DNA of 34,494 nt from a virus. The position numbers and the translations under genes are program-made. The notes beneath the pieces are model-generated. The model was given only the letters and a program-made list of their open reading frames with translations. It made no database searches and had not been told where the DNA came from. Below are positions 9,560-27,158 of the stretch, piece after piece; the first letter of the stretch is position 1, and the number at the start of each line of letters is the position of its first letter. The DNA is taken from positions 1 to 34,494 of the IMG/VR virus record IMGVR_UViG_3300047476_000601, one strand, 5' to 3'.

Positions 9560-9602
9560 GTGACCCCCGTAGGAGCGCAGGCCTATGGGGGTCACTTTTT
9601 TA
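9560..9602 (+). terminator. Rho-independent terminator after capsid gene
   Basis: GTGACCCCCGTAGG (9560-9573) pairs with CCTATGGGGGTCAC (9582-9595) in a 14-bp stem (one G-T pair) around an 8-base loop. It is followed by a run of seven T. It ends the head transcription unit just before the two leftward genes. On the other strand the hairpin is followed by GTTCTTT only, so it may also serve, more weakly, as the convergent terminator of the leftward pair. Confidence 0.9.
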
Positions 9603-9609
9603 TTGGCTG

Positions 9610-9807
9610 TTAATTCACCAGGCAGAATCCATGCTTGTGCCAGTCGCGCATCTCATCGATGGCCTTTTGCTTAGTTGGGTAATCCTCAATCAGCGCAGTA
9701 TCAAACCAACTCGGAATCCATTTGCCGTTTAATTCGTAACAGTCACTTTTGCGAAAGACGTCCCAACCATCCTCGTGCTTCCAATAAACAAGACTGCAAC
9801 ATTTCAT
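9610..9807 (-). CDS. Small leftward protein, unknown
   Basis: A 65-residue Trp/Tyr/Cys-rich protein (MKCCSLVYWKHEDGWDVFRKSDCYELNGKW...). It starts two bases after the stop of its leftward neighbour, with GGAGG seven bases before its ATG, and is the second gene of a two-gene leftward unit. These are the only genes on this strand. I do not recognise a family; the C-terminal half (YPTKQKAIDEMRDWHKHGF) looks like an alpha helix packed on a small beta sheet. Probably an accessory cargo gene, not a virion part. Confidence 0.7.
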   Translation of the reverse strand: MKCCSLVYWKHEDGWDVFRKSDCYELNGKWIPSWFDTALIEDYPTKQKAIDEMRDWHKHGFCLVN

Positions 9808-9809
9808 CT

Positions 9810-9995
9810 TTATGCCTCCGCCTTTTTATCAACCAGATTTTCTAATAGAAATGTAAGCGCGTAAATTTTGGCATCGTTGTTTTTGGCTTCTAAAACTTTA
9901 TCGATGAGTGTGTAGACCGTTGATTGGTCAAGGTTGAATGCAGGTGATGTTAGTTTTGCGATTCTCATCACTCGGTTCTTTTGGATGTTATTCAT
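9810..9995 (-). CDS. Small leftward helical protein, unknown
   Basis: A 61-residue helical protein (MNNIQKNRVMRIAKLTSPAFNLDQSTVYTLIDKVLEAKNND...FLLENLVDKKAEA) and the first gene of the leftward pair. Its ATG follows the conserved promoter and hairpin leader described at 9996-10067, with AAAGG six bases upstream. No family is recognised. Its position, strand and private promoter mark it as a moron-type insert between the capsid gene and the glycosylation genes. Confidence 0.72.
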   Translation of the reverse strand: MNNIQKNRVMRIAKLTSPAFNLDQSTVYTLIDKVLEAKNNDAKIYALTFLLENLVDKKAEA

Positions 9996-10034
9996 TTCTA
10001 TCCTTTGGCTCTAGCGGATCGCTCCGCGTTATGT
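9996..10034 (-). promoter_or_regulatory. Conserved hairpin leader (copy C)
   Basis: Read leftward: ACATAAC, then the hairpin GCGGA-GCGA-TCCGC (plus-strand stem 10014-10018 with 10023-10027, GNRA tetraloop), then TAGAGC (10008-10013), then the ribosome site AAAGG and ATAGAA before the ATG. The same order occurs before the genes at 13786 and 26773, with different stem bases that still pair. The transcript should begin at or near ACATA, so the hairpin would lie at the very 5' end of the mRNA. Confidence 0.75.
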
Positions 10035-10038
10035 CTCA

Positions 10039-10067
10039 AGGATAGCGTCTTGTTATACAAAGGGCAA
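10039..10067 (-). promoter_or_regulatory. Promoter C for the leftward pair
   Basis: Leftward -35 TTGCCC (plus 10062-10067), exactly 17 bases, then -10 TATCCT (plus 10039-10044), then four bases to ACATA. This is the same geometry as promoters A, B and D elsewhere in the window. The rest of the gap up to the glycosyltransferase start (10068-10147) holds no promoter I would defend for the rightward genes. Confidence 0.75.
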
Positions 10068-13710: not shown

Positions 13711-13739
13711 TTGCATTTGTTATACATAGATGCAATACT
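13711..13739 (+). promoter_or_regulatory. Promoter A
   Basis: -35 TTGCAT (13711-13716), 17 bases, -10 AATACT (13734-13739), then four bases to ACATA. The geometry is identical to promoters B, C and D. A second AT-rich hexamer, TATACA (13721), preceded by TG, lies inside the spacer and could act as an extended -10 instead; the matched spacing in the other copies favours AATACT. Confidence 0.7.
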
Positions 13740-13743
13740 TGTC

Positions 13744-13785
13744 ACATAGGCGCAGGGAAACCTGCTAGAGCGCAAAGGCAAGAAA
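13744..13785 (+). promoter_or_regulatory. Conserved hairpin leader (copy A)
   Basis: ACATAGGC, then hairpin GCAGG-GAAA-CCTGC (13752-13765, GNRA tetraloop), TAGAGC (13766-13771), AAAGG ribosome site (13774-13778), then AAGAAA directly before the ATG. Shared with the leaders at 9996 and 26733. The stem sequence differs between copies while pairing is kept, which argues that an RNA structure is selected. Confidence 0.78.
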
Positions 13786-14058
13786 ATGGCAACATTCGAA
13801 CTAAAGCAAGAAGTAAATACTTTCAGCGAGAAGTACTACACCCGACGCGAGAAAGTAAATCCAGACATCGAACTTTGCATTGTTTGCGGCCGCAAGGTTG
13901 GAGACAACGGTTTCAAAGTTTGGGTTGTAAACGGCGGCGATACACTCGCAACCATTGACGAAGAGGTAAACCCTGCTGGCGACTTAGGTTTTTGGCCAAT
14001 AGGATCCGAATGCATAAAGCCAATACCAGAGGCTTTCAGACTTCAACAGACAAAGTAA
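13786..14058 (+). CDS. Small putative zinc-binding protein in its own transcription unit
   Basis: A 90-residue protein with a CIVCGRKV knuckle (C31, C34) and a later GSEC, which could supply a third metal ligand. The region between them (KVWVVNGGDTLATIDEEVN) looks like two beta strands. It sits alone between promoter A with its hairpin leader and a perfect terminator, inside the structural gene region. That makes it a self-contained moron-type gene. Function unknown; a regulator or an anti-defence factor would both suit the context, but nothing in the sequence decides this. Confidence 0.75.
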   Translation: MATFELKQEVNTFSEKYYTRREKVNPDIELCIVCGRKVGDNGFKVWVVNGGDTLATIDEEVNPAGDLGFWPIGSECIKPIPEAFRLQQTK

Positions 14059-14073
14059 CCAAAACTAAAAGAG

Positions 14074-14100
14074 CCTCCGCTACGGCGGAGGTTTTCTTTT
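14074..14100 (+). terminator. Rho-independent terminator with TACG loop
   Basis: CCTCCGC (14074-14080), loop TACG, GCGGAGG (14085-14091), then TTTTCTTTT. The C-UACG-G loop belongs to the very stable UNCG tetraloop class. It closes the transcription unit of the gene at 13786. Rightward transcription from further upstream would meet it too, so the connector gene behind it may need its own promoter or read-through. Confidence 0.92.
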
Positions 14101-14124
14101 GCTGTCATAGAATAGACCTATACT
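14097..14124 (+). promoter_or_regulatory. Candidate promoter for the connector/tail operon
   Basis: TTTTGC (14097-14102) and TATACT (14119-14124) are 16 bases apart, just after a terminator and before the head-tail connector gene. TATACT is a strong -10. A start about seven bases later would leave almost no leader and would exclude the AGGAG site at 14126-14130 from the transcript. Either the transcript is nearly leaderless or this match is fortuitous. Confidence 0.3.
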
Positions 14125-14135
14125 TAGGAGTTCTC

Positions 14136-14741
14136 TTGGCAATTTCAAATGGCTACGCTTCGCTTAATCAAGTTAAAGCGGCATTGCGTATTACTGACAA
14201 CGTTGACGATACGCTTTTAGAAATGGCGATTGAGTCTGCTTCTCGGGCTATTGATGGTCACGCTGGTCGTTACTTTTATTCATCGGGAACTGCAACTCGA
14301 GTCTTTGCGGCTGATGACGCTTGGGTCTGTCAAATAGACGATTTAGCAGGGACAGCAATCACACTTAAAAGCGACCCGAACGCAGATGGCACATGGAATT
14401 ACACCTGGGCTGTTAGCGATTATCAATTAGAGCCAGTAAACGGTGTCGTTGATGGTTTACAAGTTCCTTACACACGCATTCGCGCAGTTGATAATTACAA
14501 CTTCCCAGTTCTAAACGATGAAGCCCTAGTGCAGGTCACCGGTGTCTTTGGCTGGGCTTCAGTGCCTATGGCAATTACGCAAGCCTGTGTAATTCAATCC
14601 TCACGTATTTTTAAGCGTCTAGACTCACCTCTAGGCGTTGCAGGCTTTGGCGATATGGGTGCAGTTCGCGTTAGTCGCTACCTAGACCCTGACGTTGAAC
14701 AACTGGTCGCGCCTTATCGCAGAATAAGGAACTACTACTAA
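14136..14741 (+). CDS. Head-tail connector protein (gp6-like)
   Basis: A 201-residue adaptor that should bind beneath the portal. The N-terminal helix bundle (YASLNQVKAALRITDNVDDTLLEMAIESASRAIDGHAGRYFY) is the signature of HK97 gp6-like connectors. Then come a beta section (RVFAADD, ALVQVTGVFGWASVPMAITQACVIQSSRIFKR) and the usual C-terminus VEQLVAPYRRIRNYY. I chose TTG because AGGAG lies five bases upstream. The longer open frame to 13992 overlaps the upstream gene and runs through the terminator, so it is not the start. Confidence 0.87.
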   Translation: MAISNGYASLNQVKAALRITDNVDDTLLEMAIESASRAIDGHAGRYFYSSGTATRVFAADDAWVCQIDDLAGTAITLKSDPNADGTWNYTWAVSDYQLEPVNGVVDGLQVPYTRIRAVDNYNFPVLNDEALVQVTGVFGWASVPMAITQACVIQSSRIFKRLDSPLGVAGFGDMGAVRVSRYLDPDVEQLVAPYRRIRNYY

Positions 14742-24725: not shown

Positions 24726-24754
24726 TTGCTTCTTTTTAAACTCCTGACTATGTT
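24726..24754 (+). promoter_or_regulatory. Promoter D for the replication operon
   Basis: -35 TTGCTT (24726-24731), 17 bases, -10 TATGTT (24749-24754), four bases, then ACATA (24759-24763). The geometry is the same as promoters A-C, but the hairpin leader is absent. Instead AAAGGAG follows within a few bases. TATGT and ACATA form a short dyad over the -10 and start site, which could be an operator for the RHH protein encoded next. Confidence 0.75.
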
Positions 24755-24779
24755 ATACACATACTGAAAGGAGTCGGAT

Positions 24780-24935
24780 ATGGCTGATGAAAAAGAAAAC
24801 AAAGACAATCTGATTGCTCTGCGTTTAAATAATGAGCAAATGCTCGCTGTAAGGCAGTGGGCTGTACAACACGAAAGTAATGTGTCCGAAGTTATAAGAG
24901 TCGCGATTGAAATGATGACAGGAGCAAAGCGATGA
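24780..24935 (+). CDS. Ribbon-helix-helix regulator (CopG/Arc-like)
   Basis: A 51-residue protein: MADEKENKDN, then the beta strand LIALRLN, helix NEQMLAVRQWAVQHE, the turn SN, and helix VSEVIRVAIEMMTG. This is the full ribbon-helix-helix layout, in which the strand of a dimer enters the DNA major groove. Strong AAAGGAG site. As first gene behind promoter D it is likely to repress its own operon, which holds the replication initiator. Its TGA overlaps the next ATG (ATGA). Confidence 0.8.
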   Translation: MADEKENKDNLIALRLNNEQMLAVRQWAVQHESNVSEVIRVAIEMMTGAKR

Positions 24936-26699: not shown

Positions 26700-26728
26700 T
26701 TGTAAATGTCAGCCCTAGGCCCTATCTT
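26700..26728 (+). promoter_or_regulatory. Promoter B
   Basis: -35 TTGTAA (26700-26705), 17 bases, -10 TATCTT (26723-26728), four bases to ACATA. It lies in the 118-base gap after the WhiB gene. The GAACAAATGTTC dyad just upstream (about 26653-26664) could be a weak terminator or an operator. Confidence 0.72.
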
Positions 26729-26732
26729 GGAC

Positions 26733-26772
26733 ACATAGGCGAACCTCAGGGTTCTAGAGCAAAGGTAAGAAA
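26733..26772 (+). promoter_or_regulatory. Conserved hairpin leader (copy B)
   Basis: ACATAGGC, hairpin GAACC-TCAG-GGTTC (26741-26754), TAGAGC (26755-26760), AAAGG (26761-26765), then TAAGAAA before the ATG. The stem has no base pattern in common with copies A and C except that it pairs. The first eight and the last 18 bases match copy A closely. Confidence 0.78.
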
Positions 26773-26976
26773 ATGACAAGAACAGCAACAATAAAAACCG
26801 ACTTGGTTTTCTTTGCCAAGGAATACAATCAATCTCGCAGAATGCCAGCAGGCACCGAAGTTTGGGTCGAGAAAATCTGGAAGTCAGGAACTGTAAGACT
26901 TCGCGTAAAAGGCAACCTTCACACTCGCCAGTTAAATAAAGAATTTGTTAAGCGTCACCTTGAAATGGGTGCCTAA
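26773..26976 (+). CDS. Small basic protein, first gene behind promoter B
   Basis: A 67-residue protein (MTRTATIKTDLVFFAKEYNQSRRMPAGTEVWVEKIWKSGTVRLRVKGNLHTRQLNKEFVKRHLEMGA). Alternating strands (TEVWVEKIW, GTVRLRVKG) and a high content of Lys and Arg suggest a small beta-barrel nucleic-acid binder, but no family is recognised. It heads a long operon running to the terminator at 30353, so it is probably among the first proteins made from promoter B. Confidence 0.7.
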   Translation: MTRTATIKTDLVFFAKEYNQSRRMPAGTEVWVEKIWKSGTVRLRVKGNLHTRQLNKEFVKRHLEMGA

Positions 26977-27158
26977 TGAAAATTCATAAAATACAGAATT
27001 TCAATATTTGGTATGACCGGTCATCAAAATCCTGGTTAGTTCAGCAAATAGATGAACTTGGCAAAATAGTCCAAACGATAAATGGTTATAAAGGAACCGT
27101 GCATTCCTCAAAAACTGATGCATTCAAATATGTTGAGAAATTGGTGAGCAATGTTTAA
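26976..27158 (+). CDS. Small hypothetical protein
   Basis: A 60-residue protein with an alpha/beta look (HKIQNFNIWYDRSSKSWLVQQIDELGKIVQTINGYKG..., then a helix TDAFKYVEKLVSN). Such short Trp-containing strand pairs with a terminal helix are common in phage early genes. ATG overlaps the preceding TAA; no function can be given. Confidence 0.6.
   Translation: MKIHKIQNFNIWYDRSSKSWLVQQIDELGKIVQTINGYKGTVHSSKTDAFKYVEKLVSNV

Follow-up and report, generated by a model that had tools for sequence, protein, structure and literature searches.

Why does a virus place the same hairpin leader in front of genes that are unrelated to one another? The question is raised by a 34.5-kb virus record (IMGVR_UViG_3300047476_000601), analysed over its whole length and called the window below, which encodes terminase, portal, capsid and tail proteins, a glycosyltransferase, an epimerase, WhiB, an exonuclease, a single-strand annealing protein, RusA and SSB. 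The closest cultured relative is Pontimonas phage phiPsal1 (TerL identity of 55%), with the phiC31 group as a distant relative (38%), and these affinities, together with WhiB, indicate that the host of the phage lineage is probably actinobacterial. Searching for portal homologues yielded 44 related contigs, many of which carry the leader element at the corresponding genes; every relative that carries it is a metagenome contig, and the lineage is one of uncultured phages.

The leader and its promoters

Three leaders are present in the window (Table 1). Direct reading agreed with the sequences and positions given in the earlier note and with the parts described as common to all three, namely ACATA, a 5-bp tetraloop hairpin, TAGAGC, AAAGG and ATG; the exception was the tail of copy 1, which had been given as AAGAAA-ATG and reads ATAGAA-ATG.

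Table 1. Leaders, predicted promoters, ORFs and terminators at the three occupied sites of the window
Feature	Position	Strand	Description
Predicted promoter, site A	10039..10067	-	TTGCCC 10067-10062, TATCCT 10044-10039; direct reading and alignment with relatives
Promoter spacer, site A		-	17 bp; contains TTGTATAACAA at 10060-10050
Leader copy 1 (site A)	10034-9996	-	ACATAAC GCGGA GCGA TCCGC TAGAGC C AAAGG ATAGAA ATG; covariance model E 8.3e-8
Parts of copy 1		-	Stem GCGGA 10027-10023 / TCCGC 10018-10014; loop GCGA; TAGAGC 10013-10008; AAAGG 10006-10002
Cassette A ORF 1	9810..9995	-	61 aa, no family; replaced by unrelated ORFs in relatives
Cassette A ORF 2	9610..9807	-	65 aa, no family; homologues at site A of relatives
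Terminator-like hairpin between capsid gene and cassette A	9560..9595		14-bp near-perfect inverted repeat; could serve both strands
Predicted promoter, site B	13711..13739	+	TTGCAT 13711-13716, AATACT 13734-13739; direct reading and alignment with relatives
Promoter spacer, site B		+	Contains TTGTTATACA at 13717-13726
Leader copy 2 (site B)	13744-13785	+	ACATAGGC GCAGG GAAA CCTGC TAGAGC GC AAAGG CAAGAAA ATG; covariance model E 4.8e-9
Parts of copy 2		+	Stem GCAGG 13752-13756 / CCTGC 13761-13765; loop GAAA; TAGAGC 13766-13771; AAAGG 13774-13778
Cassette B ORF	13786..14058	+	90 aa, no family; replaced by other ORFs in relatives
Terminator ending cassette B, ahead of head-tail connector	14070..14095	+	Terminators at the same place in relatives
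Predicted promoter, site C	26700..26728	+	TTGTAA 26700-26705, TATCTT 26723-26728; 17-bp spacer without TTGTTATACAA; direct reading
Leader copy 3 (site C)	26733-26772	+	ACATAGGC GAACC TCAG GGTTC TAGAGC AAAGG TAAGAAA ATG; covariance model E 2.2e-9
Parts of copy 3		+	Stem GAACC 26741-26745 / GGTTC 26750-26754; loop TCAG; TAGAGC 26755-26760; AAAGG 26761-26765
Two small ORFs heading the unit after WhiB	26773..27158	+	67 and 60 aa; first ORF differs in each relative examined there

A covariance model was built from 17 copies. In the window it matched the three known leaders, everything else scoring E 1.6 or worse; as these leaders belong to the training set, the relatives constitute the real test. 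In related contigs the model gave 51 matches at E < 0.001, corresponding to about 40 distinct copies. This search had been proposed in the earlier note, and it returned what was predicted there, further matches before ATGs with compensatory changes. The model found no copy in phiPsal1. Applied with strict filters and a cut-off of E ≤ 0.01, it also found none among 395 Actinomycetes genomes, which is weak evidence; six genomes from one order of small-genome actinobacteria contained neither the element nor the portal gene, which is likewise weak evidence. Fixed-sequence patterns with ACATAGGC and TAGAGC mostly recovered the same or a sister phage, plus chance matches, the wider family having TAGGAC.

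The module begins with the predicted promoter, followed after about 8 nt (eight bases in 36 of 41 distinct copies) by a hairpin with a stem of 4–7 bp. At least 14 different arm sequences occur among the copies, and only the pairing is constant. The loop is usually of the GNRA type (28 of 40 parsed copies), the others, equally short, including AAAA, GTTA, TCAG and a hexaloop; more distant relatives have TTCG or TTAG. After the stem comes a single-stranded box, UAGGAC or UAGAGC in the RNA (TAGGAC in 30 copies, TAGAGC in four and TAGGAA in four), then the Shine-Dalgarno sequence, usually AAAGG-like, and AUG. In most copies the ribosome site remains accessible in the predicted fold. TAGGAC contains AGGA and may itself be a ribosome-binding sequence. 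In the site B cassettes of three related contigs (L349, L360 and L361), the TTGTTATACA promoter motif and a TAGGAC near the start codon are found with no hairpin, indicating that the hairpin is an optional module and not an essential one.

Several other leaders in the group deserve mention. Upstream of the connector in L349, L360, L361, L383 and L399 there are TTGACA, TTATACA and a short leader (TAGGAC or similar) that has no hairpin; these site B cassettes, from more distant relatives, are natural hairpin-less comparators. In L296-L298, also more distant relatives, a different hairpin leader (GTAGCC aacagg GGCTGC, then AGGCAAAGGAGG) lies upstream of the glycosyltransferase at site A and is perhaps an analogous element. 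Three weak model matches (G001:C1:1331-1400, G005:C1:8235-8286 and G006:C1:23662-23716) share CACAACTAACAAAGGAAAAAGAAATG before small ORFs, which is another repeated start-site sequence in these phages, without a hairpin.

Each leader in the window is preceded by two promoter-like hexamers 17 bp apart; all three pairs are weak matches that fall below the threshold of a consensus promoter scanner and were not listed by it. At sites A, B and D the promoter spacers contain TTGTTATACAA or its inverse. At site C the spacer lacks the motif and the -35 region is different, with the same leader downstream, and some relatives have the motif at the predicted start. The same leader thus stands behind two promoter types; this independence of any one promoter class favours an action that follows transcription initiation. 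The standard cassette 5' module is a predicted sigma-70-type promoter, usually with the TTGTTATACAA motif, followed by the hairpin and an open ribosome site.

The motif TTGTTATACAA/TTGTATAACAA, a quasi-palindrome with TTGT/ACAA half-sites, occurs in the promoter spacer of most cassettes across the phage group and is a candidate operator for shared control; in the window it is found in the spacers of sites A and B and at 24751-24759 (+). A 51-aa protein encoded at 24780-24935 (+) has the same motif upstream and no hairpin, making it a candidate autoregulated repressor of the cassettes. One relative of this protein weakly matches CopG-type antitoxin/ribbon-helix-helix families (E 0.0006, below the cut-off).

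Pairing between the hairpin arms

The earlier note took the retention of pairing while the bases change as a sign of RNA selection. That reading held across the approximately 40 distinct copies, in a pairing-blind control and in a recent compensatory double change. The pairing-blind pattern, AGC-N14-TAGGACAAAGGA, imposes no pairing requirement. In viral contigs all five pairs were present in 15 of 28 distinct matches, and four pairs in two more, as compared with five pairs in none of 118 matches, mostly due to chance, in cellular genomes. The paired viral matches also show a promoter-like upstream region and an ORF start, and most of the unpaired ones look like chance. In three near-identical phages (L058, L072 and L038) the approximately 104 bases of promoter and leader are the same apart from two positions in L038, which pair with each other as the innermost base pair of the stem, changed from C-G to A-U.

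Alignment counts point in the same direction. In total, 98.8% of cells were paired and 27 double changes were counted, a result reached by none of 500 shuffles, although the copies share descent and the cells do not count as independent events; the covariation score was 0.80 vs 0.22 for shuffled alignments. Site-by-site and near-identical comparisons address the shared descent: orthologous copies of one site were 97.8% paired with 10 double changes, and the site B loci, which were retrieved through the connector gene and whose copies the model then chose and aligned, were 100% paired with 16 double changes. Controls with slid partners dropped to 26–60% paired. Copies of differing stem length or register came out of MAFFT misaligned, and such alignments were left out of the counts. 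Considering that model-fitted alignments lean towards structure, the pairing-blind and near-identical-phage tests weigh more, and the compensatory double change together with the pairing-blind control implies that RNA structure is under selection. We conclude from these sequence comparisons that selection keeps the RNA structure and not the stem sequence.

Sites, cassettes and gene exchange

Leader copies occupy four conserved sites, A to D, where they head transcription units of small, highly variable ORFs. Site A, on the opposite strand, separates the major capsid gene from the glycosyltransferase gene; site B lies between the glycosylation genes and the head-tail connector and has a terminator at its end; site C follows WhiB, its unit continuing into the early genes; and site D follows the exonuclease. 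The window has leaders at A, B and C, with none seen at D. The listed TTG start of the connector ORF (13992-14741, +) overlaps cassette B and its terminator, and homology begins only at about 14127, suggesting that the true start probably lies downstream of the terminator and that 13992 is unlikely.

The first ORFs behind the leader belong to 7 families among 12 copies at site A, 7 among 12 at site B and 7 among 7 at site C. In two clear homologous pairs (61% and 74% identity) the members occupy different sites in different phages; a third such pair is weak. Sequence agreement between near-identical phages is about 99% as far as the leader, with unrelated sequence past the start codon, and many relatives have no such unit at the site. 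Owing to the variable ORFs, the terminators and the end of identity at the leader/ORF junction, sites A and B match the description of morons, which are accessory genes that sit among structural genes and bring their own promoter and terminator, with the leader as the left exchange border. A variable gene with its own (predicted) promoter and terminator between conserved genes is found at A and B and not at C. To our knowledge, morons do not share a covarying RNA leader. As judged from these patterns of replacement, the genes behind the leaders form exchangeable accessory cassettes of a moron-like kind, headed by a standard 5' module that is reused at as many as four sites.

Function of the leader and comparison with known systems

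We lean towards the reading that the hairpin shields the 5' end of the mRNA and holds the ribosome site open, and we regard it as somewhat probable that the element serves this phage lineage as a standard 5' untranslated leader for its accessory cassettes. A hairpin close to the RNA 5' end would hinder 5'-end-dependent decay of the RppH/RNase E or RNase J type; it would also insulate the ribosome site from the following ORF, such that any swapped-in gene is expressed reliably; and the conserved promoter-leader block would offer homologous recombination a fixed left boundary in cassette exchange. The stems vary, and the loops vary while remaining short, indicating that a stable hairpin is what is kept, and its freedom in stem and loop sequence fits a stabiliser better than a protein site and disfavours a sequence-specific operator. 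The position fits the predicted promoters as well: transcription is predicted to start at ACATA, which would put the hairpin close to the 5' end, and the ribosome site follows it directly.

A comparable arrangement of a 5' hairpin and then the ribosome site is known from the T7 gene 10 leader. The ompA, papA and aprE 5' stabilisers have it as well (review, PMC3997798). According to the same review, Bacillus subtilis mRNAs can be stabilised by a hairpin, ribosome site or bound protein located at their 5' end or close to it, and an appended 5' hairpin stabilises the Escherichia coli bla mRNA (PMC3997798). The known leaders of this kind each serve a single gene, whereas the phage leader is a covarying family reused on exchangeable cassettes, for which the stabilising effect is predicted. 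Several features argue against a stabiliser: about 6–8 unpaired bases are predicted before the stem, and hairpins of the ompA type protect less well behind a long unpaired 5' end; some cassettes of relatives combine the same promoter motif with TAGGAC and have no hairpin; and conservation of the TAGGAC box is stronger than a plain stabiliser would require.

The conservation of the flanks ACATA/TAACAGC and TAGGAC/TAGAGC, which exceeds that of stem or loop, could instead mean that an RNA-binding protein of phage or host, or a small RNA, binds the leader and coordinates cassette translation, with the hairpin presenting the single-stranded flanks. The same leader on all cassettes would then give coordinated control. 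We consider this possible and rather unlikely, as the sequence of stem and loop is free, unlike that of most protein-bound hairpins, the TAGGAC box is also found without the hairpin and contains AGGA, such that ribosome pairing may explain it, and no candidate binder was found. It is just as tentatively that we entertain a dedicated phage RNA element, its boxes read by a phage or host factor, which would combine common post-transcriptional control of all cassettes with a mark for exchange.

The loss of identity past the start codon in near-identical phages and the recurrence of genes at another site are what would be expected if the block were mainly a DNA-level recombination junction, similar to PeSLs, conserved through cassette exchange and with an incidental hairpin. 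However, recombination needs identity, yet the stem sequence changes with pairing kept, and pairing is kept only in the strand order relevant to RNA, in the stretch that separates promoter and ribosome site. Recombination is thus a possible added role and improbable as the whole explanation. That several phage transcription units have a hairpin close to their 5' end would suit a put- or nut-like antitermination signal, but such a signal is very unlikely: there is no conserved loop, and the leader at site A points antisense towards the capsid gene with a terminator between, such that read-through would be antisense to structural genes. The phiC31 repressor binds conserved inverted repeats, and a comparable DNA operator, suggested by the distant relationship to the phiC31 group and by the location of the repeat just downstream of the promoters, is the least credible reading, because operators keep their sequence whereas the arms here vary with only the pairing kept, and TTGTTATACAA in the promoter spacer is the better operator candidate.

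With regard to known families, Rfam (release 15) gave no match in the window at the gathering threshold and, in permissive searches, chance-level matches with none on the leaders; no description that matches the leader was found in the literature. Both results agree with the earlier note, which knew of no described family and drew a loose analogy to the start-associated sequences (SASs) of Cluster K phages. The analogy is fair in that a repeated element lies directly before the starts of unrelated, mostly small phage genes. The Cluster K SAS is a fixed 13-bp sequence, GGGATAGGAGCCC, located 3–7 bp before the start codon, and half of the SASs have an inverted repeat (ESAS) just upstream, the arms of which are 17-bp conserved sequences with, as the authors find, little support for RNA pairing (PMC3203893). 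The phage leaders do not contain GGGATAGGAGCCC, their flanking sequences differ, and their arms of 4–7 bp are variable and covarying, unlike the sequence-conserved ESAS; they are hence not the same thing.

T4-type PeSLs (Arbiol 2010, Comeau 2014) are composite promoter-terminator motifs according to the title cited in PMC4503421. They resemble the leader, as far as that citation describes them, in being a repeated promoter and stem-loop block at the borders of shuffled small genes, and the leader likewise marks gene-exchange borders. In contrast to PeSLs as cited, its stem-loop covaries, is not followed by a T-run and lies within the 5' leader, downstream of the promoter. The leader combines known kinds, a 5' hairpin leader and an exchangeable cassette, and is set apart from PeSLs by their cited description.

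The leader is a structured phage RNA element with clean covariation and no published description that we found. It marks the left edge of accessory cassettes, so that a simple covariance search can find such genes, and the cassette genes are candidates for anti-host or anti-defence functions. The leader ties mRNA structure to modular gene exchange, a question that PeSLs and SASs left open, and the RNA-level constraint is measurable here.
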